Positions 6,259 to 18,703 of a stretch of DNA of 64,000 nt are shown piece by piece. The notes beneath the pieces are model-generated. The model did no database searches. It worked only from the letters and a program-made list of their open reading frames with translations, and was not told the origin of the DNA. This stretch comes from Paracoccus amoyensis (GTDB lineage: Bacteria; Pseudomonadota; Alphaproteobacteria; Rhodobacterales; Rhodobacteraceae). The position numbers were made by a program, and so were the translations under genes. Location: positions 372,001 through 436,000 of the forward strand of contig NZ_JACOQL010000003.1 of assembly GCF_014490725.1 (NCBI RefSeq), read 5' to 3'. Positions within the stretch are counted from its first letter, which is position 1; each line of letters starts with the position of its first letter.

Positions 6259-7037
6259 TGACCCTGCCAGCGGCTTTCATAGAATTTTCGATGTTTTTCA
6301 GACATCGCCTTGGTGTCCATTATCAAAAATACATCGGTGGTGTTGAATTCACGGTCGATAAAAGCGCCTTCGCCCACCAGACCGCCAAGCCGCAGATATG
6401 CCTTGATCAGTGCGGGCATACCAACCATTGCTTCACGCCGGTCCAGCTTGTCAGCCGCGATCAGATCCATGCTTTGAAAGCCGTCCGTGCGGGCGACGGG
6501 GCGCAATTCCTGTGGCGCAAGCGCGTTGTGATGCAGCCAGCTTAGGGATGGAGCCAGGATAGACGCATCGGTGCCGTGAAAGCTGGCGACGCCGAACAAG
6601 ATCTCGATACCGTGGTCCAGCACGTAATCTGCCAGCGCATTCCACAGCAGGAACATGGCAGAGCCACCGCGAAATTCCGGGTCGACACAGGATCGGCCCA
6701 GCTCCAACACGGCACGGTCTGTTTCGCGCAACCGCGTCAGATCATATTCGCTGTCGCAATAGAACCGGCCGAACTTTGCGGCGCGATCCCCCGGCAACAG
6801 GCGGTAGACGCCCACAACGTGATCCAGATCCTGAACCGAGCGGCGCTTATCTATCAGGCACAGATGATCTACGATCGGATCAAATTCGTCCTTTTCCAAT
6901 CGGGCTTCATGATCCACCAAGGGACCATTGCCGCCCAATTCCTCCACAAAGACACGATAGCGCAGCCTTTGCGCGGCCAGTAAATCCTGCTCCGAAAGGG
7001 CCAGGCGGATTTCAAGGAAAGATGAGTCTGAATTCAT
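6255..7037 (-). CDS. olsB: Ornithine-acyl-ACP N-acyltransferase, OlsB-like
   Basis: A GNAT-like acyltransferase of about 260 aa that would transfer a 3-hydroxyacyl group from acyl carrier protein to ornithine, the first step of ornithine lipid formation. Recognisable segments include AQRLRYRVFVEELG, VVGVYRLL, ELGRSCVDPEFRGG and LFGVASFHGTD, all typical of the OlsB/hemolysin-like acetyltransferase family. I start at ATG 7037 because the upstream extension only offers TTG and has no family-like residues; a strong ribosome site is not visible. The stop overlaps the olsA start by four bases (ATGA), so the two should be co-translated. Confidence 0.9.
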   Translation of the reverse strand: MNSDSSFLEIRLALSEQDLLAAQRLRYRVFVEELGGNGPLVDHEARLEKDEFDPIVDHLCLIDKRRSVQDLDHVVGVYRLLPGDRAAKFGRFYCDSEYDLTRLRETDRAVLELGRSCVDPEFRGGSAMFLLWNALADYVLDHGIEILFGVASFHGTDASILAPSLSWLHHNALAPQELRPVARTDGFQSMDLIAADKLDRREAMVGMPALIKAYLRLGGLVGEGAFIDREFNTTDVFLIMDTKAMSEKHRKFYESRWQGQ

Positions 7038-7189
7038 GCCGTCGGCGAAAACCAAGCGTTGCCTATCAGGACGGTGTCTAGGTTGCGGCAGTATCGAATG
7101 CAACAAACATCATTCTTACGCAGCGTCAACTTAAAAACTCCTATTGAAATCTACAACCAGCGGCTGCATTTTGTACGGCGAAAAGCCGC

Positions 7190-7372
7190 TCATTTTCCAT
7201 CATCAGACCAAACCAAATCGAGGGATACTTTTCGCCCGTCAATGACTTGCTTTCCAGCCTCGGTGAAATTCACGGTGATCTTGTCACCGATGCGCGATTG
7301 CACCTGTCCCCGCCCCCATTCAGGGGCGCCAGGGTGGCGAACAATCATGCCGGGTTCAAGCAATTCATTCAT
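7190..7372 (-). CDS. DUF3553 small protein
   Basis: A 60-aa protein with the DUF3553 pattern: PGMIVRHPGAPEWGRGQVQS, then GDKITVNFTEAGKQVI, reading like a small SH3-type beta barrel. In alphaproteobacteria this domain is found as a stand-alone protein or attached to UvrD-type helicases, which suggests nucleic-acid association; no function is established. It is divergent from chpT with a spacer of only 37 bp. Confidence 0.85.
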   Translation of the reverse strand: MNELLEPGMIVRHPGAPEWGRGQVQSRIGDKITVNFTEAGKQVIDGRKVSLDLVWSDDGK

Positions 7373-7409
7373 GTATATCTCTCGTCGTTATTTTAGAAAG
7401 TAAACCGAC

Positions 7410-8078
7410 ATGACCAAGGACACAACGCAACTTATGCCCGGCGAACTCGCGCAGCTTCTGGGATCGCGGTTGTGTCATGATCTGGTTTCGCCACTGGGCG
7501 CTATCGGCAATGGCGTCGAGCTGTTGGAAATGTCGCCCGGCTTCCCCGGGATTGCCAACAGTCCCGAATTGCGCCTGATCGCTGAATCTGTCGCCGCCGC
7601 ACGCAACCGGCTTCAGGCGTTTCGCATCGCTTTTGGTCAAAGCCAAGGCAGCCAGCGCGTCAGTCGGGCCGAACTTGCAAAGCTGCTCAGTGGAATGGCC
7701 GCGCAAACCCGGCTAACGGTGCAGTTGGACGCAGAAGGTGACTTCTCCCGTGCCGAAGTGCGGATGGTCATGTTGGCGATGATGTGCCTTGAAACCGCGC
7801 TGCCATGGGGCGGCAGTATCACCATCGTTCATACCACAAACAGTTGGCGCTTTGTGGCCGAGGCCAGCCGAACGAAGCAAGATCGCAACCTGTGGCATTG
7901 GCTTGGCGGCGGCTGCAACAAGGATGCGTCGACACGCACCATCGCCCCCTCGGAAGTCCAGTTCGTGTTGTTGGCGGAAGCCGTCGAACAGGAACAGCGG
8001 GTCATCCTGTGGGACGTTGATGACAGTGGCGCAGAACTGCTGATAAAACACGCTGGCGGCAACGAAACGCTTGGCTAG
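7410..8078 (+). CDS. chpT: ChpT-family histidine phosphotransferase
   Basis: A 222-aa homologue of the alphaproteobacterial phosphotransferase that relays phosphate from hybrid kinase CckA to CtrA and CpdR. The phospho-acceptor helix reads SRLCHDLVSPLGAIGNGVEL with His23 as the modified residue; the C-terminal half is a degenerate GHKL-like domain without ATP-binding boxes, as expected for ChpT. Its stop codon TAG shares the palindromic CTAG with the stop codon of the convergent HlyD gene, so the two genes overlap by 4 bp. The core cell-cycle relay gene therefore abuts an accessory secretion locus with no spacer or terminator. Confidence 0.9.
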   Translation: MTKDTTQLMPGELAQLLGSRLCHDLVSPLGAIGNGVELLEMSPGFPGIANSPELRLIAESVAAARNRLQAFRIAFGQSQGSQRVSRAELAKLLSGMAAQTRLTVQLDAEGDFSRAEVRMVMLAMMCLETALPWGGSITIVHTTNSWRFVAEASRTKQDRNLWHWLGGGCNKDASTRTIAPSEVQFVLLAEAVEQEQRVILWDVDDSGAELLIKHAGGNETLG

Positions 8079-9406
8079 TTCTCGCGGAACGCACGCGAAA
8101 GGCTGTCTTCGATCGGTTTGACCAGGTATTGCGCGAAAGTCCGTGCGTCGGTCTCGATCATCACCTCTGCGGGCATCCCCGGAATTGGTCTGAAACCGCG
8201 CACCCGTTCCAGTTCTGACGCTGGCAGATCAATTCGTGCGACGTAGATGTCTTGCGGAATACCGCCCGCTTCGGTTTTCAGAGCATCTGCCGAGACATAG
8301 ACCAGTTGTCCCTCCAGCACCGGTGTTGTGCGTTGGTTCATAGATGTCAGCCGGACAGAGGCCCGCTGCCCAACCTCAACCTGATCTATATCTGTCCGCG
8401 AAATTTGCGTCTCGATTACCAAGGGTGCGTTGTCTGGTAGAATTTCGACAATCGCTTTGCCGGCTTCGATCACGCCCCCCGGCGTGTGATAATACATCCG
8501 AACGATGGTACCAGAAACCGGAGAAACAATGTCTGCGCGCAGCAAGACATCACTGGTTTTCGTCGACTGTTCGCGAACGCTGTCCAAATCGGCTTCGATC
8601 CCCTGACTTTCATCCAGCGCGGTTTGTGCGTGTTGCATACGGGTCTGCTCGATCTCTCGCCCAGCTTTGCGCAACGCTTCTTCTGTTTCAAGAATTTGCG
8701 CACGCAGCCGTTCGGCCTCACCCTCGGCATCGGCGACCGCACGCGACAGAACATTCACCTCGCTACGGCGAACAAGGCCGCGTTGAAAAAGCTGTTCGCG
8801 GGTGGTCAGATCCTCTTGCAGAAGCCGAAGCTGTGTTTCGACCGCCGTTAATTGCCCCCGAAAGCCGTCGATTCTGGACTGGCTTGCGCTGATATTGCTG
8901 TCCAGCAGGGTGATCTCACCGGCCAATTTATTGCGTGCCGCACGAAACGCTGCTTCTTGTTCAAGGATGATCGCCGACACGGCAGGATCGCTCCGCCGCT
9001 GCTGAACAAAATCTGCGAGAACGATGGCATCGGCGGCTTCATATTCCGCACGCAGGCGCGCACTGATCGCTTCCAATCTGGCGCGCCGCAGCTCTAGCTC
9101 TCGTTCGTTCGCGACGGCCGCTGTTCGGTCAAGCCGGATCAGGGTTTGACCGGCGGAAACGGTATCGCCCTCGGCTACCATGATTTCGCTGATTATGCCG
9201 CCTTCAAGATGCTGCACGATCTTGTTGCTGCCCGTCGCGACAAAGCTGCCCGGTGCCATGACCGCCGCGGCAAGCGGTGCGCGAAACGCCCATACGCCAA
9301 AACCACCAAATGATACCACCAGCAGCAGCAGGCCCAAGACCAGATGCTTGCGAACCGAGTGGGGCACATCACTGTAAAGCGCATCGAGATCACTGTTCCG
9401 GGGCAT
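8075..9406 (-). CDS. HlyD/PrtE-type type I secretion membrane-fusion protein
   Basis: About 443 aa. A short cytoplasmic N-terminus precedes one transmembrane helix (about residues 22-42), then a lipoyl/barrel-sandwich half (SNKIVQHLEGGIISEIMVAEGD), a long coiled-coil hairpin rich in Glu, Arg and Leu (about residues 110-280), and the second lipoyl and beta-barrel region (ADIVSPVSGTIV, then DIVSPVS-like and PIPGMPAEVMI). It would bridge the inner-membrane ABC exporter to a TolC-type outer-membrane channel, which is not encoded in the window. ATG at 9406 is chosen because it leaves a normal short N-terminus; the gene overlaps the exporter gene by 17 bp. Confidence 0.92.
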   Translation of the reverse strand: MPRNSDLDALYSDVPHSVRKHLVLGLLLLVVSFGGFGVWAFRAPLAAAVMAPGSFVATGSNKIVQHLEGGIISEIMVAEGDTVSAGQTLIRLDRTAAVANERELELRRARLEAISARLRAEYEAADAIVLADFVQQRRSDPAVSAIILEQEAAFRAARNKLAGEITLLDSNISASQSRIDGFRGQLTAVETQLRLLQEDLTTREQLFQRGLVRRSEVNVLSRAVADAEGEAERLRAQILETEEALRKAGREIEQTRMQHAQTALDESQGIEADLDSVREQSTKTSDVLLRADIVSPVSGTIVRMYYHTPGGVIEAGKAIVEILPDNAPLVIETQISRTDIDQVEVGQRASVRLTSMNQRTTPVLEGQLVYVSADALKTEAGGIPQDIYVARIDLPASELERVRGFRPIPGMPAEVMIETDARTFAQYLVKPIEDSLSRAFREN

Positions 9407-11318
9407 CTTGCGCCTCGCTTTCAGGAGGGGCGGAATGCGGCGCGGTCTGTTGCCGATTGGACAATCGCTGAAGCATCTGATCGCGTGTCCCGAACATTGA
9501 TATCTGCCCGTCCGCGAGCAACATGATATTATCAACATCCTGTAGCAGCGCATATTTCTGGGTCACGACGATCACGGTTATGCGGTTCTGCTTTGCCAGC
9601 GCCATGGCCCGCGACAACGCCCGGTCACCTGCCGAATCGAGGTTGGAGTTCGGTTCATCCAACACCACCAGCCGTGGCCCGCCGAAAAAGGCCCGTGCCA
9701 ACCCGATGCGCTGCTTCTGCCCGCCCGACAGCGGAGACCCATCCGATGAAACGATGGTTTCATACCCCTCGGGCAGCTTGGCGATCATGTCATGCACATC
9801 AGCCAGCACCGCCGCCCGATAAATTTCGTCATCACTGACATCCGCCCGCATCCGGGCGATATTGTCCTTTATCGTGCCGGGAAAAAGCTGCACATCCTGC
9901 GGCAAATAACCGATGCATTGACCAAGCTGGCGTTGGTCCCAGTTACGCAAATCCATCAGGTCCAGCCTGACACTGCCTGAGGTTGGCAGTATCGAGCCAA
10001 CCAGCATTTTGCCCAACGTCGTCTTGCCGGCTCCGGATTTACCAACCATTGCCAGCGATGTGCCCGGCAGCAAAGAAAACGTAATCGAGTTCAAAACCAC
10101 CCGTTTGGTCCCATTCGGCACGAACAACAATCGCTCAACATCCAATCGCCCTTCGGGATGTGGCAAATGCAAACGCTGTTGGTTCAGGGGCGACGATTTC
10201 AGCAATGACGAAATGCGACCATAGGCCGAGCGTGACAACAGCACGCTGTTCCATCCTTCTATCGCGCCCTCGATAGGAGCAAGTGCTCTGCCTGCGATAA
10301 TCGAGGCTGCGATAACCATGCCTCCCGTAATTTCACCCTTCAACGCCAGATAGGCCCCCCAGCCTAGCAGCCCCACTTGGGTTAACAATCGCACCCCGCG
10401 CGATGCGCTGGCGAAGACGATATTGCGATCCTGGGCGCGCACCTGCGACGCCATTGAACTTGCCGCGTCACGGCCCCAGATCGTCACAGCCTCGGGGATC
10501 ATCGCCAGGGCATTGATGATCTGCGAATTGCGTGACATCGAATCCAGATGGCGGTTGGCACGACTTAGATGCCCGTTGGCTTTTGCGAATGGTCCTGCTG
10601 TGGCACGCTGGTTGATCAAAGCAATGATCAACAGCAACAGGGCCGTCGTCACGACGATCAAACCAAGATGAGGGTGAACCAGAAAGATCGCCAGAATAAA
10701 CAGCGGTGCAAAGGGCAAATCCAGAAACGACAGCAAGGTTCCGGATACCAGAAAACTGCGCACCTGCTGCAAATCGCCCAGCGTTTGATATTCCTGCCCA
10801 TTGCTTTGCAGCGATGCCCGCGCTGCGGCTGCCAGAATGGGGGCTCCAAGGCGGGCAGAAAGATCAACCGAACTACGCAGCAGCATTCCACGACGGATTG
10901 CGTCGAACATGACTTGCAGCAACACCGCCCCGATCACCACCACCGTCAGCATGACCAGGGTATCGGTGGAACGGCTGGTCAGCACGCGGTCCGATATCTG
11001 AAACAGATAGATCGGGATCGCCAACACCAAAATATTGGTCACGCCGCTGAACAGGAGAACGCCCAGGATATTCGCCCATAGACGCCGTATCGTGATCTGC
11101 AGCGCGCCGGAAATATCAGGCTCTGCAGCCCGCTTATGAAACGCTGCGCCCCTGTCACCGGCGGTCGTTGTCGTTTGTGGGATGCGACCAGCCTGTTGAT
11201 CTATCGTCGGTCCAGTGCCGAGCGGTTTGGCCCGTGAGAGGCTGGCGGAGTTATCCCTCCACTCGGTATGCAATTCCGGTTTGGCGCTGCGATGATCCGT
11301 CTTCTCATGACCGCTCAT
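9390..11318 (-). CDS. PrtD-type type I secretion ABC exporter (permease-ATPase)
   Basis: A 642-aa half-transporter with a poorly conserved 70-residue cytoplasmic leader, six predicted membrane spans (about residues 80-345) and a C-terminal ATPase: Walker A GKSGAGKTT (426-434), signature LSGGQKQR (530-537), Walker B RLVVLDEP (549-556). It lacks the C39 peptidase domain, so a processed double-glycine leader is unlikely and an uncleaved C-terminal secretion signal is expected for its cargo. Its ATG overlaps the stop of the upstream 687-aa repeat protein by ATGA, tying that protein to the secretion machine. The adaptor gene follows directly. Confidence 0.93.
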   Translation of the reverse strand: MSGHEKTDHRSAKPELHTEWRDNSASLSRAKPLGTGPTIDQQAGRIPQTTTTAGDRGAAFHKRAAEPDISGALQITIRRLWANILGVLLFSGVTNILVLAIPIYLFQISDRVLTSRSTDTLVMLTVVVIGAVLLQVMFDAIRRGMLLRSSVDLSARLGAPILAAAARASLQSNGQEYQTLGDLQQVRSFLVSGTLLSFLDLPFAPLFILAIFLVHPHLGLIVVTTALLLLIIALINQRATAGPFAKANGHLSRANRHLDSMSRNSQIINALAMIPEAVTIWGRDAASSMASQVRAQDRNIVFASASRGVRLLTQVGLLGWGAYLALKGEITGGMVIAASIIAGRALAPIEGAIEGWNSVLLSRSAYGRISSLLKSSPLNQQRLHLPHPEGRLDVERLLFVPNGTKRVVLNSITFSLLPGTSLAMVGKSGAGKTTLGKMLVGSILPTSGSVRLDLMDLRNWDQRQLGQCIGYLPQDVQLFPGTIKDNIARMRADVSDDEIYRAAVLADVHDMIAKLPEGYETIVSSDGSPLSGGQKQRIGLARAFFGGPRLVVLDEPNSNLDSAGDRALSRAMALAKQNRITVIVVTQKYALLQDVDNIMLLADGQISMFGTRDQMLQRLSNRQQTAPHSAPPESEAQDAPEQ

Positions 11319-13378
11319 GTCAACACCGTTTCCATCGCATCCGGTGAAACGGTCTCATTCGATCCGATGGGCTGAAATTCCTGGTGTTCGGGATCGACGC
11401 TTAACATGCCATCGGCCAGAAACAGGACGGCCTCGGTGGCAAGTGTTGACGGAACATCAGGCTTCAACGGATCATCGGTTGCAATCAGTTCTGCCTGATA
11501 TAGCAACGCATCGGAATAGACTTGGCCGCCCGAATAAATTGTCGAATCGTATTCGGCTTCGATAATGCTCGCAGAGTTCACCAGAACATTCGACCCTGCC
11601 ACGATTTTGATTTCGCCACCATTATCCAGCAGCTTGTCCCGAAAAATCTCGATTTGATCGGAGTCGCCCATTACGTTCGTCTGCCGGATCATATTCAGCG
11701 AAACCATGTCGCCTTTGATGTGCAGGACTCGAACAAGGTCGAGCCCCTGAAAGGTTGGGTTTTCCAGCAAGGATTTGGGTAAGTCGATTTCTCCGCCAGC
11801 CGCTTTGGCCATCATCTTGGCCATATCCGCAGTCATATCTTTGTAGGTCGGCTTGCCTGCCTGAATGATCTGCGACGAGTTGATCAGCAAGTTGTCGCCG
11901 GCACTGACCGCAGCCTCGGTCCCTCCTTTCACGATGATCCGATCATCATCCAGAAGCACATTTTTTTGAATGACAGCGTTAAGATTGATGATGTAACCAT
12001 CAATCACGATCAGGTCGAATTGAGTGCCCAGTTCGCTCAACGACACCTTGTTCACAGTGCCGTTTTCACCCATCAGCATCAGCGTTTTCGCAGCATTGAC
12101 GGTGATTGATGTGACGTCATTATCCGTCATCAGATTGTATTGATCTACCCAGTTGACGTTAATAAGACTGCCCTTCAACGTCGCCGTCGCCCAATATTGC
12201 GGCGCATCGTCACCGCCGTCGCGATCCGGCATCGGATTCGAGAAAATCTTATAGGATGCGTAATTCAATGCATTCGTCGTATCGCTGCTTTGTGCGCCCC
12301 CTGAATTTTCGGAAAGCATCTTGATAACGTTCTGGTCGCTCCAGACGTTTGTTTGGCTGATGATATTATAGTTGTATATCCCTTGACCGACGCTCATCAC
12401 AGGCGCTGCAATCCAGCCGGAACTGATGACAACCTCATTCAGCAGCGTATTATTGCCATGGACAAATTCGTGCTGATTGTCTGCCACTTCAGTCTGCACG
12501 GTCGTTTTGGATCCGGCCCAGCTTGGCCCATCATCATTTGTTTTGGCTGCTTCTTCCTTGGCAATTCGGGCGGCTTCCTCCTCCTGCGCCGCTTTCTGAT
12601 CTTTGCGATAGAGGGGCAGCAGATCTGCCAGTTTAGGCGCCTCTTCGACTGCTGTTCCGTTTAGAAATTGGCCTTCAACCGAAGCCCCCTGAAGGGAATG
12701 GACGGTCGCGGAATTGGCCGTCATCGCAGGCAGATCGGTGTCTTTGAAAGCCAGCGCAATATCACGAAACGCCAATTCATCGGCGGGCAGGTCCGGGTTC
12801 AGTGCAATCCCAAGTTCATTGGCCTGCGTTGCCAGAACCGCCATTTTTGCGTCGATCAGGTTCAAGCTGACAGCGCCAGCCTCCATTTGGCTTGCGTCAA
12901 TCCTGTCATCGTCGAACTGCGCAAGATTACCCAAGAGCATCACGACCAACGACCCCGGAGGAGGCAAGGTCCAGACCGTTTCAGGAGGTGGCTCCGGTGG
13001 GTCAACAACCGGGGGTTTTGGTGGTGGTGTCGTCAGCAGGATCAAGGGACTGCCATCAGGCTGAACTTTTCCAATCTGCCGCATCGGTATTCCGAATGCG
13101 TCGCCCGCAATTGCGCTATCATAAAATGTCATCTGCGCAGCCTGCAATTCGCGGATCGGCAAGCCGGGCGGATCATAACGGATATCAGGGATATAATCGG
13201 GAATCACGTATGGATGCTGCGTCGCAATATCCAGCGGTTTGATTTCAGGCGGTTCGATGTCAGGCTTAACGGGTGTCAGGCGATCATATTCGATCCACAT
13301 CCGCCCACGTTCTTCGGTAATCTGAAAAATGCCGGCGAAATGCCAGATCGCTTCATCGGCAGCTTGAATCTTCAACAT
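11315..13378 (-). CDS. Uncharacterised repeat protein coupled to the type I exporter
   Basis: About 687 aa; not recognised as a named family. From the N-terminus: a small conserved-looking head, a Pro-rich linker (about residues 116-142), an Ala/Glu/Lys-rich charged helix (about 260-282), then a beta-rich region with four copies of a motif like G-x(3-6)-N-x3-Q-x-N-x3-D-x-D (about 331-352, 401-422, 460-481, 554-575; one example is NMIRQTNVMGDSDQI). These alternate with three copies of a motif like G-x-N-x-L-x-N (HGNNTLLN, AGDNLLIN, AGSNVLVN). No signal peptide or membrane span is seen. It is fused translationally to the ABC exporter by ATGA, so it may be a second substrate, a surface-retention partner or an export factor. 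ATG 13378 is preferred over an upstream TTG at 13432. Confidence 0.75.
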   Translation of the reverse strand: MLKIQAADEAIWHFAGIFQITEERGRMWIEYDRLTPVKPDIEPPEIKPLDIATQHPYVIPDYIPDIRYDPPGLPIRELQAAQMTFYDSAIAGDAFGIPMRQIGKVQPDGSPLILLTTPPPKPPVVDPPEPPPETVWTLPPPGSLVVMLLGNLAQFDDDRIDASQMEAGAVSLNLIDAKMAVLATQANELGIALNPDLPADELAFRDIALAFKDTDLPAMTANSATVHSLQGASVEGQFLNGTAVEEAPKLADLLPLYRKDQKAAQEEEAARIAKEEAAKTNDDGPSWAGSKTTVQTEVADNQHEFVHGNNTLLNEVVISSGWIAAPVMSVGQGIYNYNIISQTNVWSDQNVIKMLSENSGGAQSSDTTNALNYASYKIFSNPMPDRDGGDDAPQYWATATLKGSLINVNWVDQYNLMTDNDVTSITVNAAKTLMLMGENGTVNKVSLSELGTQFDLIVIDGYIINLNAVIQKNVLLDDDRIIVKGGTEAAVSAGDNLLINSSQIIQAGKPTYKDMTADMAKMMAKAAGGEIDLPKSLLENPTFQGLDLVRVLHIKGDMVSLNMIRQTNVMGDSDQIEIFRDKLLDNGGEIKIVAGSNVLVNSASIIEAEYDSTIYSGGQVYSDALLYQAELIATDDPLKPDVPSTLATEAVLFLADGMLSVDPEHQEFQPIGSNETVSPDAMETVLT

Positions 13379-13433
13379 GTCGGCTACGTCCCAACTAATG
13401 ACAGTTCCGCAACAATGCCGGACAGACACCAAT

Positions 13434-13470
13434 TAAAAATGATCCTGCGCGGGATCCGCCGCGCAGGATC
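13434..13470 (-). terminator. Intrinsic terminator between candidate substrate and exporter genes
   Basis: GATCCTGCGCGG (13441-13452) and CCGCGCAGGATC (13459-13470) form a perfect 12-bp stem with a 6-base loop. On the minus strand it is followed by ATTTTTAATT. It lies directly after the Gly-rich gene stop and before the repeat-protein start, so it could let the abundant substrate be made in excess of the exporter. Confidence 0.8.
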
Positions 13471-13487
13471 GTGTCACATGAGGTTAA

Positions 13488-15344
13488 TCAGCCACCCAGA
13501 TCGTCGTCACCAATCACATGCGAGCTGAGATCGCCCCCAACCACCGTCATATCGACCGTGTTGTTCAAGACATTGGCCCCCATGACGATGCTTTGGTTGA
13601 ATGCTGTGGTTTCCACGACGGCGTCAGCCGATGCGTTCGAAGTTCCGGTAACAAAACCATCGTCACCATTGTTTGAACCCCAAGTGCCGGCATGGGCATA
13701 TCCGCCGTCACCATTCATCACCTGGCCGCCCGCACCGCCATAACCACTGTCGGTATTGATGCCATCACCACCATAGGCCATTCCGCCACTGGAAGTCGCC
13801 GTGCCACCCGAGCCACCAGTTGTCGTGCCCGTCGCACCACCCATACCCGCGCCGCCGGCTGCACTACCTTCGCCCGTGCCATCGCCATTCGCACTTCCTC
13901 CGGCACCGCCTGTCGCCCAGACATTGCCCGCGCCACTGCCAGTGCCGCTACCTGCCGTGGCATCGCCCGCCATGCTTGCTGCGGCAGACAGTGCAGCACC
14001 AATGCCGGTACCCGCGCCACCGTCACCACCATCGGCACCAGGAGCGCCAGCACCACCAGCACCCGAAGTTCCGCCATTGCCACTATCGTTGTTGACACCG
14101 GCACCCAGCAGTCCGCCCAAGCCAAGAGCACCGCTCATACCGCCGTCGGCCGAACCCGTGTTGCCACCGTCACCGCCATCGCCGCCGTGATCGCCATCGC
14201 CACCCTTGCCAGCACCCAAGGCACCTGCAGCGCTTCCGGCAGCTGCATCGCCGCCCGCAGCGTCGCCGCCAAGGCCAGCGCCCAGACCAGCCGCAACACC
14301 CCCGGCATCGCCGCCATCAGCGCTGCCGCCCTGACCAACGCCCAAGCCGACGCCCAATGCTGCGCCACCGTCGCCATCACCCGCCTTCGCAAGCGCATCT
14401 CCACCATCGCCGGTATAGGATTTGCTGCCAGAGGCTATCGCCCCGGCCCCATCAGCATTGGCGTCACCTTTGCCGCCATCGGCACTTGAATCGCCACCGC
14501 CATCACCGCCGTGACCACCCGCATCGATACCAGCCTCGGCATACGCATCGCCCGCATTCGCATTACCGTTCTGGTTGAAATCGGCATTGTTGGAAACCGT
14601 CGGATTCAGCAGCTCGTCCTGATCGTCAAGGTTCCATGCATTTGCTTGCGTGACGGCTGTATTGTTGTCGCCATTCAAAGACTTATTCAACACATTGTCG
14701 AATGTCAGATCACGGGTACCAATGCTGATTTCGCCATCGCGATTCACAAGCAGGTCACCCATGGTGCCGCTGTGGTTGTCCAGATCAATATCGGCATAAT
14801 CGTTGTCGGTTGGCGCCCAGCCCTCCAGGTCCAGATCGACATTCACCTTGGTCGAGACATCCGTATCGACATTGGTGTTAACTTCCGTGTCGTTGTAGGC
14901 GGAATTGACCGCTTCGTTATAGGCGTCATTTGCCGCGTCGTTTTGGGCAGCATTGTTTGAAGCGTTTTCGGCCGCATTGCTGGCTGCGTTATCCGCAGCA
15001 TTACTGGCCGCGTTGTCGGTGGCATTTGATGCGCTGTTATCGGCGTCATTGTCGGACGCATTGTTAGCGGCGTTACCCGCCTGATTTTCAGCGCCGTTCG
15101 CAGCATATGTTTCCGACGCGCTCGAATTTTCATTCGAGTTGCTATTTTCATTGGCGTTCGCGTTGCTCTGCTCTTGCGATTGCCCCTGATCCTGATCCTG
15201 ATCCTGGTCCTGATCTTGCTTGTTCAGCTGACCCTGCTTCTGTCCTTGCCCTTGATGTTGATCCTGATCCTGGTCCTGATCCTGGTCCTGATCTTGATCA
15301 TTCATCGGCCAAGCAAAGAGATTCATGTTACGGCTACCAGCCAT
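13488..15344 (-). CDS. Low-complexity Asp-Gln / Asn-Ala / Gly-rich candidate type I secretion substrate
   Basis: A 618-aa protein with no cysteine or signal peptide in a highly ordered composition. Residues 1-15 form a short head. Residues 16-60 are (Asp-Gln)n runs interrupted by Gln-Gly. Residues 61-150 are Asn/Ala/Ser-rich with tetrad repeats such as NAASNAAD. Residues 151-258 are a more complex acidic region containing NTAVTQANAWNLDDQ. Residues 270-570 are a Gly/Ala/Asp/Ser-rich tract. The tail ends in SIVMGANVLNNTVDM and GDDDLGG. The tail motif GANVLNN and the QANAWNLDDQ motif echo the repeats of the neighbouring 687-aa protein. ATG 15344 has AGGAG nine bases upstream. Composition and adjacency to an exporter without a peptidase domain suggest an acidic secreted or surface polymer-like protein; this is inference. 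Confidence 0.75.
   Translation of the reverse strand: MAGSRNMNLFAWPMNDQDQDQDQDQDQDQHQGQGQKQGQLNKQDQDQDQDQDQGQSQEQSNANANENSNSNENSSASETYAANGAENQAGNAANNASDNDADNSASNATDNAASNAADNAASNAAENASNNAAQNDAANDAYNEAVNSAYNDTEVNTNVDTDVSTKVNVDLDLEGWAPTDNDYADIDLDNHSGTMGDLLVNRDGEISIGTRDLTFDNVLNKSLNGDNNTAVTQANAWNLDDQDELLNPTVSNNADFNQNGNANAGDAYAEAGIDAGGHGGDGGGDSSADGGKGDANADGAGAIASGSKSYTGDGGDALAKAGDGDGGAALGVGLGVGQGGSADGGDAGGVAAGLGAGLGGDAAGGDAAAGSAAGALGAGKGGDGDHGGDGGDGGNTGSADGGMSGALGLGGLLGAGVNNDSGNGGTSGAGGAGAPGADGGDGGAGTGIGAALSAAASMAGDATAGSGTGSGAGNVWATGGAGGSANGDGTGEGSAAGGAGMGGATGTTTGGSGGTATSSGGMAYGGDGINTDSGYGGAGGQVMNGDGGYAHAGTWGSNNGDDGFVTGTSNASADAVVETTAFNQSIVMGANVLNNTVDMTVVGGDLSSHVIGDDDLGG
15183..15299 (-). repeat. 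In-frame GAYCAR hexanucleotide runs encoding Asp-Gln repeats
   Basis: Two runs of near-identical 6-bp units (minus-strand sense GATCAGGACCAG) at about 15258-15299 and 15183-15218 encode seven and six Asp-Gln pairs, separated by a Gln-Gly/Lys-rich spacer. Because the unit is a multiple of three, slippage would change length without breaking the frame. Confidence 0.85.
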
Positions 15345-15930
15345 TTTTCCACACTCCTGATGACGGGCGGGAACGGCCATGTAATTCGCAAGCTCGCGTG
15401 CCGCCCAGTTCTGGTGGGATCAAGCAAGACGTTACCCCCGCCGAGCAAATGCTCACCGTGAAGACGGTGCGGCCGTCGCGCCCTACTCATTTTCCGATTG
15501 GCCTTTCGCCACCCCGAACCGGCCTCGTATGCCTGGCTGCGCAAATGGCGCTTAGGCACAGCTCAACAATACGCCCACAATCGGGATTTGGCATAGTCGC
15601 ACGAAGGGATTAGCCCTGTCAGCGGAAGGTGTTGTTCGGGCAACGCGGGCGGCTATGCCCAATCGCAAGAAAAATGGCCGTAATCCTGACCATTACGGTT
15701 AGTACATATGGCTATGTCCTATAAAAACTAAACAATATAGTATTGTTTTTCAAAGAGATACATGCCGCCCTTGCAATTTGCATAACCCCATGAATTTACA
15801 CATCATTACCTTAGATTTCAGACGAAAAATGTGGTAGATTCATGACTGATTGCAGCAATCCATACACCTGCCCGGCACAAAATAAACGAGTGATTCTGTT
15901 CAAATATTAAGCTGATTGGAGGCCGCCAGG
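15345..15930. other. 586-bp intergenic region between the Gly-rich gene and the LuxR gene
   Basis: Divergent control region with no convincing gene in any frame. The left two-thirds is GC-rich and shows no clear structure to me. The right third (about 15670-15910) is markedly AT-rich and holds three successive dyads. It must hold the promoters for both the candidate substrate gene and the regulator gene. Confidence 0.7.
15678..15748. promoter_or_regulatory. Three stacked inverted repeats, candidate operator array
   Basis: CCGTAAT-N7-ATTACGG at 15678-15698, ACATA-N4-TATGT at 15704-15717 and AAACAATA-TAG-TATTGTTT at 15730-15748 are all exact dyads within 71 bp. The last is followed by a T-run and could also be a weak terminator-like hairpin. 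The LuxR-type protein encoded just downstream is the obvious candidate binder. Confidence 0.5.
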
Positions 15931-16623
15931 ATGGAGGTTATTGATATTTCAAACGCACCAAGCACTCAAATTGAGGTGGCTGGCCTTTCGATGCCTGAGG
16001 TCATTTTCGTCGGCACCCAGCGCAATTTTTCACCGTCGCTCATTACTGCGACAACTCAGGAACTTGGACAAGTCATAGCAGATGTTCTGACATCCTTCAA
16101 TGATCTGCACAAATTAATCCAACAAACCGGACATCACCCGACGGTCATCATCATTGATGAACCAACGTTGCGGAATTTACATGAAGCGGATCGGCAGCTT
16201 CTTTATGAAATTGATGCGGCTTCCATCGGCTTGGCCTATGCATCGACTACATTCGCGGCCGCTTGGTATAATGATCACACGTTGCGACTGCGTTCCGTCA
16301 GTGTCTTTCCCCTCAATGTCCGGCTTGATGTTTGGTTGTCCATCATCCGACTTATCGCCCACGGCGCGGGTTATGTCTGCCCAGAGGTCATGTTATTCAA
16401 GGAGCCGGATCCAAAAACCCTGGCAGAGGATGAATTTTGCCTGACGCAGCGACAAATCGACGTGCTTCAACTGGTTGCTGACGGACAATCGAACAAACGC
16501 ATTGCTGACAGGCTGGGTTTGTCAGTGCATACGGTCAAATTACATCTGCACAATGCCAGCCAACGATTGGGGGCACGCAACAGAACCGAAGCAGCAATGC
16601 GATACCAGGCCGTCAGAAAATGA
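15931..16623 (+). CDS. LuxR-type transcriptional regulator with receiver-like N-terminus
   Basis: About 230 aa. The C-terminal 65 residues are a clear LuxR/GerE helix-turn-helix (LTQRQIDVLQLVADGQSNKR, then SVHTVKLHLHN). The N-terminal part resembles a degenerate receiver fold (TVIIIDEPTL with one central Asp but without the full acidic pocket), a layout also seen in matrix regulators such as CsgD and VpsT. GGAGG lies eight bases before ATG 15931; an in-frame TTG at 15916 is rejected because it overlaps this ribosome site. The stop overlaps the next gene by ATGA. It is divergent from the candidate secreted protein and probably controls it; the signal sensed is unknown. Confidence 0.9.
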   Translation: MEVIDISNAPSTQIEVAGLSMPEVIFVGTQRNFSPSLITATTQELGQVIADVLTSFNDLHKLIQQTGHHPTVIIIDEPTLRNLHEADRQLLYEIDAASIGLAYASTTFAAAWYNDHTLRLRSVSVFPLNVRLDVWLSIIRLIAHGAGYVCPEVMLFKEPDPKTLAEDEFCLTQRQIDVLQLVADGQSNKRIADRLGLSVHTVKLHLHNASQRLGARNRTEAAMRYQAVRK

Positions 16624-17141
16624 CCGCCCGATCCGCATCAGGCAGCAGCAAGCCATCCGAACAGGATTTGGATGCGGTCATGCTTCGCGTCGGCCGCCTG
16701 AACTACGCGTGGAGCAATACGGAAAGTCTGCTGATCCATATGCTCGCGGGTTTGACCGGCATGTCAAACGGCGCTGCCGTCGTGATCTTTTTGTCGGTTA
16801 CCTCGGCCCGCGGACGTATCGAGATGGTCGAACGCTTGGCAAAACTGCGCCTTCCGTCAGGAGATCATCAGAAGGATTTGCTGGAACTTACCGCGCGCTT
16901 TTCACGTCTGCTGGCTGTTCGCAACCGCTACAATCACAGCATCTGGTCGTTTGAAGAAGATGGTTCGGTTTCAACCATTCTGATGCGCATAGCCGATCGC
17001 AGGGATCGCATTCATATGGGCCGCAAACAAAACCTCAGCGATGATGAGCTAGACAAGCTGGACCGCGATCTGACCACGCTCTCCACGCTGAATCGCGAGA
17101 TGTGGCGGTTCCTGCAGCATTACAATTATCCCATAGAATAA
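16620..17141 (+). CDS. Small helical protein with HEPN-like RxxxxH motif
   Basis: A 173-aa, mostly alpha-helical protein of unknown function, translationally coupled (ATGA) to the LuxR-type regulator. Helix-rich blocks include WSNTESLLIHMLAGLTG and RIEMVERLAKL. Residues 101-106 (RNRYNH, in LLAVRNRYNHSIWSF) fit the R-x4-H motif that forms the active site of many HEPN ribonucleases, and its placement at the start of a late helix also fits. HEPN membership is suggested by this motif and the helical pattern only. It could instead be a non-catalytic partner of the regulator. No antitoxin-like neighbour is present. Confidence 0.6.
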   Translation: MTARSASGSSKPSEQDLDAVMLRVGRLNYAWSNTESLLIHMLAGLTGMSNGAAVVIFLSVTSARGRIEMVERLAKLRLPSGDHQKDLLELTARFSRLLAVRNRYNHSIWSFEEDGSVSTILMRIADRRDRIHMGRKQNLSDDELDKLDRDLTTLSTLNREMWRFLQHYNYPIE

Positions 17142-17249
17142 CACAAATCGCCACATGCTCAGGTGTCCACAGGGCAAGCCCCAAAAGCCGAAAGCATCCG
17201 GCCGCGACCTCATGGGATGTCAATCAAGACGCCAATTACAGAGACTTGA

Positions 17250-18197
17250 TCAGCCTGCCGCCAGCTTTCTTTCGATTGCAATCCAGATTGCCTCTGCCGC
17301 ATTCACACCGTCAAATCTCTCCAACTCCTGAATACCCGTCGGAGAGGTGACGTTAATTTCGGTCAACCATCCGTCGATCACATCGATGCCAGTAAACAGC
17401 AGTCCTTTTTCGCGCAGGACAGGTTTCAGTCGCGCACAGATTTCATGTTCACGATCCGTCAGACCGACTTTTTCGGCCCTGCCGCCGACATGCATGTTCG
17501 ACCGAGCCTCGCCTTCTTGCGGAACGCGGTTGATCGCGCCGACCGGCTCACCATCGACAAGAATGATCCGCTTGTCGCCCTTCACCACCGCAGGCAGATA
17601 TTTTTGGGCGATCATGGGCTCTCGGTTTATGCTGGCGAATGTTTCCAGCAAGGAGGACAGGTTGGGATCGCCCGGTTTCAGATGGAAAACACCAGCGCCA
17701 CCATTCCCATAAAGCGGCTTTACAATGATCTCGCCATGGCGTGCACGGAACTCTTTGAACGCTGCGGGATCGCGCGCGATCATCGTGGGTGGCGTCAGAT
17801 CGGGAAAGTCCAGGACCATCAATTTCTCGGGACTGTTGCGCACCCAGAAAGGATCATTCACCACCAACGTCTGTTGCCGCACGCGATCCAGCAGATGGGT
17901 CGAGGTAACATAGGCCATGTCGAAAGGCGGATCCTGCCGCAGCCAGATCACATCAAATTCAGCGACATCAACCTCGGCCCAATCGCCGAAGCTGACGTGC
18001 TTGCCCTCTTCACGCCGAAGGGTAATCGGACGCCCTTTTGCGATAACCCGTCCTTCATCGTAGCGTAGTTGATCAGGGGTATATTGGAAAAGCCTATGCC
18101 CTCTGGCCTCTGCCTCCAGACCAATCCGAAACGTGCTATCCCCCAGGATCGAGACATCTTCGATCGGGTCCATTTGCAAGGCGACATAAAAGCTCAT
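17250..18197 (-). CDS. gshB: Glutathione synthetase
   Basis: A 315-aa ATP-grasp enzyme that joins gamma-glutamylcysteine and glycine. Family hallmarks are visible: [18 protein letters not shown] at the N-terminus, [21 protein letters not shown]-type substrate loop (about residues 95-110), GGAGVFHLK in the ATP-grasp domain, and the C-terminal [20 protein letters not shown] with the metal-binding Asn. ATG 18197 has AGGAG just upstream, so the longer in-frame extension is discounted. It is downstream of yraN on the same strand and convergent with the HEPN-like gene. Confidence 0.95.
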
Positions 18198-18256
18198 CAG
18201 TTTCTCCTGAACGGAACTGCTTTGCTTGTCACCTGTGGTTGGGATGGATGCAAGCG

Positions 18257-18703
18257 TCAGGCGAAACAATCACCGAACGCGTTTTCCAGAATATCAATCC
18301 GACCAAGGGAGTCCACCAAGGCTGCATCAAAGCGCATTTCGCTGTTCAGACCTTCGGGTTGCGTCGCGCAAAATTCCAAGGCGGCGTTGCAAATCCTGAT
18401 CTGTTGGGAACGCAGCAGTCGCCCCGCCGCTTCTTCATGTGAACGTGACTGCTTCACTTCAACGAAAACAAAGCAGTTCCCGTCGCGCAGAATCATATCG
18501 ATTTCGCCAGCTTTCCCACGCCAGCGCTGATGCAGAATCTGCAAGCCCCGCCCCTCCAACAGACGTGCAACGCTTTCTTCTGCAAAGCGCCCGGACAGAT
18601 CGGCCATCCGTCCCCGGTTCTGCCGTGCGCGGGTGACCCGCGTCGGACCACCCCTATCTGCGATGCGATGGTCAGGCTTCAGGGCCAGTTCGGACATGGT
18701 CAT
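18257..18703 (-). CDS. yraN: YraN/UPF0102 nuclease-fold protein
   Basis: About 148 aa, UPF0102 family, with the restriction-endonuclease-like core: [20 protein letters not shown], then [14 protein letters not shown] and [11 protein letters not shown]. The E-x-D...E-x-K residues typical of this fold are present. Its role is unknown, but it is nearly always next to rsmI, as here. ATG 18703 with AGGAAAG upstream gives a Lys/Arg-rich N-terminal extension overlapping the end of rsmI by about 30 bp; starts at 18697 and at the later MADLSG methionine (about 18607) are possible. Confidence 0.9.

Follow-up and report, generated by a model that had tools for sequence, protein, structure and literature searches.

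What does a type I-class exporter carry when the two proteins encoded beside it match no family in Pfam or NCBIfam? The question is raised by a stretch of 64,000 nt of Paracoccus amoyensis contig NZ_JACOQL010000003.1 (the window, meaning the whole stretch; all coordinates are positions in it). Here the genes for an HlyD-type adaptor, a PrtD-type ATP-binding cassette (ABC) exporter, a 687-amino-acid (aa) repeat protein (P687) and a 618-aa protein rich in Asp-Gln repeats, Asn and Gly (DQN) form a single operon, and the genes for a LuxR-type regulator and a protein with a HEPN motif are divergent from it. Judging from sequence, we propose with a probability of roughly 55% that this is a self-contained type I export module that builds a surface or matrix fibre from DQN and P687. 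Export is suggested by the operon structure, the exporter class and the C-terminal conservation; a matrix role is suggested by composition and by exopolysaccharide-type neighbours at 11 of 80 loci.

Co-occurrence and gene order

The strongest evidence that P687 and DQN work together is their co-occurrence. P687 was found in 25 of 125 Paracoccus genomes, in 26 of 295 genomes drawn evenly from the family, and in 3 of 289 genomes of the class (own genome included; one of the three marginal at E 1.3e-4). The C-terminal element of DQN, searched alone, was present in exactly the 26 of 295 family genomes with P687 and in 0 of the 269 others, and in two of the 289 class genomes, both with P687. Within the 26 family genomes the element and P687 lay on one contig, about 0.5 kb apart at most.

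Named genomes were scanned with an alignment query, and the best 80 of 157 relatives were read in pieces no longer than about 20 kb, which is the basis of all counts out of 80; a contig scan with the single protein instead of an alignment had returned no relative. The loci came from Paracoccus, roseobacters, Ensifer/Sinorhizobium, Mesorhizobium, Nitratireductor and others. The six genes occurred in window order at 52 of the 80 loci, at 66 when LuxR was not required, and at all eight same-genus loci read (the window plus seven). That the same partners recur in this order argues that the grouping is not due to chance, and the neighbourhood is conserved. PrtD was directly 3' of P687 at 79 loci (the exception, L083, has a PrtD frame extended over P687), HlyD was 3' of PrtD at 79, and DQN was 5' of P687 at 76. 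The HEPN-motif gene was divergent upstream at 67 loci and downstream on the operon strand at five (L083, L090, L092, L107 and L117); it was not found at eight, all with less than 5.5 kb of upstream sequence in the fetched piece. The six seed models detected DQN at 54 loci and LuxR at 60. A frame upstream of P687 was readable at 78 loci and carried the element at 76, those of L103 and L122 being other reading frames. Plasmid records gave 32 with P687 and 33 with the HEPN-motif protein, in nearly identical genera and numbers.

Organisation of the module

The features of the module are as follows.
8075 to 9406, minus strand: HlyD-type periplasmic adaptor, 443 aa; likely ATG at 9406, open frame to 9553 (TIGR01843; homologue alignment).
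9390 to 11318, minus strand: PrtD-type ABC exporter, 642 aa (TIGR01842; Walker motifs).
11315 to 13378, minus strand: P687, 687-aa repeat protein, probable cargo (repeats, composition, predicted structure).
13379 to 13487, minus strand: intergenic hairpin stretch, terminator-like (12-bp stem, loop of 6, then ATTTTTAATT).
13488 to 15344, minus strand: DQN, 618-aa (Asp-Gln)n/Asn/Gly-rich protein, probable main cargo (composition, domain build, conservation).
13491 to 13688, minus strand: invariant C-terminal element of DQN, AFNQSIVMGANVLNNTVDMTVVGGD (conservation among homologues).
15931 to 16623, plus strand: LuxR-type (GerE) regulator, 230 aa; ATG at 15931, TTG at 15916 also open (PF00196; variable N-terminal part).
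16620 to 17141, plus strand: HEPN-motif protein, 173 aa (RNRYNH motif; predicted mostly helical).

All six genes lie where a preliminary description of this DNA had placed them, with two start-site corrections: DQN spans 13488-15344, and the HlyD start at 9406 is favoured over 9553 because the longer frame overlaps PrtD and homologues align from 9406. The P687 and PrtD genes overlap by 4 bases, and the PrtD and HlyD genes overlap too.

The exporter and its partners

The PrtD protein scored 684.8 bits against TIGR01842 (cut-off 510.15) and the HlyD protein 374.7 bits against TIGR01843 (cut-off 208.65), which bears out their earlier assignment as a type I-class ABC exporter and an HlyD-class adaptor. 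PrtD has the Walker A motif GKSGAGKT and the signature LSGGQ and, as described before, no peptidase domain among its Pfam rows. No TolC-class gene lies within the module; the genome of P. amoyensis encodes one TIGR01844 (TolC-family) protein away from it (C11:475243; 258.2 bits, cut-off 225.15). An outer-membrane efflux-like gene was inside the fetched piece at 3 of 80 loci (L075, L076 and L108), L076 being judged by eye and the L075 and L108 proteins being 29-31% identical to that of L076. The exporter itself is ordinary, a PrtD/HlyD pair without its own TolC. The earlier label of an undescribed type I secretion system thus does not extend to the exporter; it stands for the cargo pair and for the partnership of regulator and HEPN-motif protein, which are new.

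The same genome (L155) has a second PrtD/HlyD pair (C12:345000-362000) next to a protein whose sequence looks RTX-like by eye; it is probably an ordinary type I system.

DQN and P687

Type I cargos are often identified through their RTX repeats. For the window's DQN and P687, Pfam gave no RTX match at E up to 1, nor at 0.1 in seven DQN and eight P687 proteins. As the preliminary description had supposed, profile searches of Pfam and NCBIfam left both proteins unmatched at curated cut-offs. The single weak row for DQN was NF047351 (E 0.034), and those for P687 were tPilZ (E 0.073) and NF002055 (E 0.13). The P687 profile gave nothing better than E 1 against PDB sequences, and PADLOC gave no match for three proteins, P687 and DQN among them.

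DQN is built from an (xQ)n block, an Asn-rich block, a conserved middle domain (consensus GxxPTDDDFADIDL...LNGxGND...QxNxLxDNDxL, 43 sequences), a Gly-rich block (27% Gly overall) and the invariant C-terminal element. The protein upstream of P687 at the named loci mostly has the same build, and the element, [AM]FN[QM]x[IVF][VIT][MLQ]G[AG]N...VGG, occurs in 76 of 78 such frames; a few relatives (e.g. L075, L119 and L137) have N-terminal parts without Gln-repeat runs. The long Gly-rich block is not essential, since it is lacking from two tandem DQN-like proteins (281 and 277 aa) that adjoin P687, PrtD and HlyD in a distant relative belonging to another family (G601). Two tandem DQN gene copies with one P687 were seen at L170 and L171. 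The 1517-aa coding sequence of Rhodobacter sp. CZR27 (L175:4626-9179) was considered as a natural DQN-P687 fusion and rejected; the DQN C-terminus is out of frame, which makes it a frameshift join, and the joined reading frame is a sequencing error or a broken gene.

Gln and Asn alternate along DQN. Over 74 DQN proteins longer than 400 aa (73 of the 76 plus the window's), their values at lag 1 were 0.16 and 0.26 of the block-shuffle level, and at lags 2, 4, 6 and 8 they were 1.7-2.5. With this alternation, an extended strand would present a single kind of side chain on one of its faces. Asp was less periodic (1.65 at lag 2), a point that bears on whether the product might instead be a secreted calcium- or metal-binding polymer with a signalling or scavenging role rather than a structural one. 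Both cargos are acidic (isoelectric points 4.05 and 4.26), as such a polymer would be, and calcium promotes BapA-linked attached growth in P. denitrificans, according to the available part of PMC5588039. With strong periodicity in Gln and Asn, and with RTX repeats lacking at E up to 1, we consider a metal-binding role improbable.

In keeping with its earlier label of a repeat protein, P687 contains a GDxxxxNxIxQxNVxxDxDxI-like unit four times and GxNxLxNxAxI three times; its best self-match is 0.87, vs 0.69 in one shuffled profile. The window protein has no Cys, a Pro-rich linker, a predicted beta-rich body at about residues 300-640 and a conserved C-terminal tail. In 53 of 98 homologues the sequence ends in TMLA, TVLA or SMLA, and a conserved end of this kind would be expected of a C-terminal export signal. 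Its AlphaFold2 model has a mean predicted local distance difference test (pLDDT) score of 78.3 and a predicted template modelling score of 0.73. Most ten-residue blocks of 141-640 exceed 80 (exceptions 281-300, 351-370, 581-590 and 631-640), a regular series of strands runs over 302-632, and the model is uncertain over the first 140 residues and roughly the last 45. The top Foldseek rows, all weak (E 0.36 and worse), were FapC, a serine-rich adhesin, SufB, tapirin and CsgA. In fold comparison 4 of 46 chains reached Z 2, the best being FapC (Z 2.9, root-mean-square deviation (rmsd) 3.1, 80 aligned). Since several of the weak Foldseek rows are beta-solenoids, such a fold is plausible for P687.

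The P687 repeats share a QxNxLxDxDxL look with the middle domain and C-terminus of DQN. Homology between them was rejected; hhalign gave probabilities of 7.0 and 3.3% only, and 2.2% with fewer sequences. Some public records name P687 homologues "type I secretion protein ATPase" (e.g. L157:8092-10200, on a plasmid of Sulfitobacter sp. W074); the window P687 matched no ATPase family.

The hairpin between DQN and P687

A stem of at least nine uninterrupted pairs was present in 65 of 68 gaps between DQN and P687, compared with 43 of 680 mononucleotide shuffles and 5 of 67 coding controls (gaps of 60-200 bases, G-U pairs allowed in the stem). Folding z-scores had a median of -3.2 and were below -2 in 57 of 67 gaps. 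The arms averaged 80% G+C, and 60 of 64 were distinct strings, several of those shown sharing CTGCGC. Rfam had no match in 7000-18500. From this pattern the hairpin may act by partial termination or by message protection, leaving DQN in excess.

The LuxR-type regulator and the HEPN-motif protein

The LuxR-type protein ends in a GerE helix-turn-helix domain (PF00196, E 3.5e-18). Public records label it "response regulator". The window protein has no receiver domain match in Pfam at E up to 1, and its N-terminal part is variable. Because no Asp is conserved in at least 75% of 55 aligned sequences at residues 1-125, it is unlike a phosphorylated receiver.

The motif of the HEPN ribonuclease superfamily is R-[N/D/H]-x3-H. 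The sixth protein had been called HEPN-like, and to the extent of this motif the name holds: R-[N/H/D]-x3-H was found in 69 of 72 homologues, with H106 invariant in 75. No HEPN Pfam family was matched by 75 members, nor did the profile give anything better than E 1 against PDB sequences. The model is helical (pLDDT 80.8), and the comparison of folds was not decisive, a HEPN chain ranking 14 (Z 5.4, rmsd 3.6, 103 aligned) and unrelated bundles scoring as well. LuxR was 5' of the HEPN-motif gene at 53 of 72 loci in one count and adjoined it at 54 in the gene-order count. The HEPN-motif protein is the more constant partner, since in several Rhizobiales LuxR is not beside it.

In the divergent gap between DQN and LuxR (15345-15915), stretches are conserved with L020 and hold several overlapping frames on both strands; they are more likely regulatory DNA or a leader than a gene. 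The loci read showed no seventh conserved gene, short genes having been sought in the divergent gap only.

This gap matters for a comparison with the Cdz system of Caulobacter crescentus, in which type I-exported Gly-rich proteins kill on contact. The module might be a surface two-protein antibacterial system of that kind, as the available part of PMC5380434 describes for Cdz two cargos, type I export, glycine-zipper sequence and surface aggregates. The same text describes the Cdz cargos as small and bacteriocin-like, whereas those of the module have 618 and 687 aa. Cdz also needs an immunity protein with three predicted membrane segments; none was seen in the module, where the HEPN-motif protein has a mean hydropathy of -0.39 and the short frames of the divergent gap have matches in one or two close relatives, as expected of conserved DNA. 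A Cdz-like function is thus highly improbable.

Comparison with known systems

The preliminary description had left open whether the module equals the BapA locus of P. denitrificans. It does not: the genome of strain DSM 413 (L068) has both the module and a separate Asp-Ala locus on another contig, and identity of the two was rejected. The sequence of that contig opens within the Asp-Ala block; next come an ABC exporter of 765 aa, an adaptor and, in the position of the outer-membrane gene, a protein of 458 aa. This exporter shares 28% identity with the module PrtD and reaches 321 of the 510 bits of the PrtD cut-off. In the available part of PMC5588039, BapA is a protein of 2,211 aa with 891 Asp-Ala repeats, encoded upstream of bapBCD, which include an outer-membrane protein. 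Both systems are type I operons with a low-complexity acidic cargo, but they differ in exporter, and DQN has no (Asp-Ala)n block and the window module no outer-membrane gene next to it. According to the same source, an automatic tool run on the P. denitrificans proteome used there detected just one type I system; a module without TolC could be overlooked by such tools.

Other PrtD/HlyD-class type I systems share with the module an exporter and adaptor above the TIGR01842 and TIGR01843 cut-offs, and the module differs from them in its two obligate cargos without RTX repeats, the lack of TolC and the divergent LuxR and HEPN-motif genes. Curli (CsgA) and Fap (FapC) resemble it in a Gln/Asn-rich repeat pattern and in standing among the top Foldseek rows of P687, although FapC (E 0.36) and CsgA (E 0.78) are far from significant and the exporter class is another. 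Pfam gave no curlin or Fap repeat in P687 or DQN (the window's, eight P687 and seven DQN proteins). The S. meliloti genes SMc04205-08, considered as a candidate, were set aside by description, the literature in its available parts concerning an iron-regulated gene beside a receptor gene. Open-licence papers, in the parts available, gave no description of the module; within this literature the obligate pair of cargos without RTX repeats, the hairpin and the control by LuxR and HEPN-motif proteins have not been described.

Genomic context

At 11 of the 80 loci the module has on either side a GT2 gene with GalE-like and UDP-glucuronate-decarboxylase-like (UXS) genes, and 10 of the 11 also have a GH26-like gene (L114, L125, L102, L088, L108 and others; Sulfitobacter gene names are from public records).

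The flanks of the module vary between species. In the window it adjoins a ChpT-like histidine phosphotransferase gene (7410-8078; 84.5 of 225 bits, below the NCBIfam equivalog cut-off) with upstream neighbours conserved in the genus. This neighbourhood occurs without the module in relatives, the two upstream genes lying beside ChpT at 25 of 26 other same-genus loci. From the differing flanks and the ChpT neighbourhood without it, we infer that the module occupies various genomic sites and is likely to have moved. The idea that the module was simply inserted between the ChpT-like gene and an ATP-grasp gene downstream was rejected, as the latter lay within 1.5 kb at 0 of the 26 loci.

Evidence for and against the proposed two-protein fibre

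Both DQN and P687 are poor in Cys. Across 76 DQN proteins, 45,173 aa in total, no Cys occurs beyond residue 40, and 98 P687 homologues have 51 in 65,808 aa, with none in 64 of them. The controls were 89 in 11,708 aa (0.76%) for the HEPN-motif protein, relative to which P687 is about ten-fold depleted, and 1.49% for LuxR.

Several observations count against a fibre of DQN and P687. The depletion is not specific, since PrtD (0.19%) and HlyD (0.27%) are low in Cys too, which makes it supportive, not decisive; and 34 of the 98 P687 proteins have at least one Cys. P687 has no significant structural match, and profile comparison gives no relationship between it and DQN. At least five T in the next nine bases follow only 17 of 68 hairpins, so these are not uniformly terminators. 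The exopolysaccharide-type neighbours are limited to those 11 loci, all in Rhodobacterales, and stand beside no named Paracoccus or Rhizobiales locus. Finally, BapA loss alone abolishes surface attachment of P. denitrificans (PMC13235738, available part), and the module, if present and expressed there, therefore does not stand in for BapA; it is silent, absent or no adhesin in that strain and under those conditions.

Some of these points would suit a division of labour in which DQN is the sole cargo and P687 remains in or on the cell as a dedicated accessory (a chaperone, or a periplasmic or outer-face anchor) and part of the export machine. P687 is as constant as the exporter, with which it shares the 4-base overlap; the Cys-containing homologues, the stronger C-terminal conservation in DQN, which the hairpin sets apart, and the two genomes with two DQN copies and one P687 point the same way. 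Against this, P687 is strongly Cys-depleted relative to the HEPN-motif protein, has a conserved tail of its own and showed by eye no membrane segment or Sec signal, no predictor having been run. On balance an accessory P687 seems rather unlikely, and we prefer a fibre of both proteins.

Proposed mechanism and significance

Under the preferred reading, PrtD as the energised pore and HlyD would recruit a TolC encoded elsewhere, and DQN and P687 would be exported by C-terminal signals without Sec. The hairpin would attenuate or protect the message after the DQN gene, with DQN made in excess as the main structural polymer outside the cell. Beta structure with amide ladders could arise from its alternating Gln and Asn stretches, and its Gly-rich block could make an extended brush, with P687, predicted to be beta-rich, capping, nucleating or anchoring the polymer. 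The product would be a proteinaceous surface or matrix fibre working beside exopolysaccharide. The LuxR-type regulator would switch the divergent operon, and the HEPN-motif protein, possibly a ribonuclease, would tune it after transcription.

A narrower version, in which the fibre is functional-amyloid-like, DQN polymerises via two-residue Gln/Asn ladders and P687 nucleates or anchors it under LuxR/HEPN control, is tentative and on the unlikely side. If true, it would make the module an alphaproteobacterial counterpart of curli and Fap with unrelated exporter and subunits.

The obligate cargo pair without RTX repeats is widely spread among model denitrifiers, roseobacters and rhizobia, recurs in soil, marine and root-associated bacteria, and is annotated as hypothetical, or even as an ATPase of type I secretion, in the records examined. 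If exported, the pair would extend the type I cargos by a class without RTX repeats and would offer a candidate for a matrix protein.

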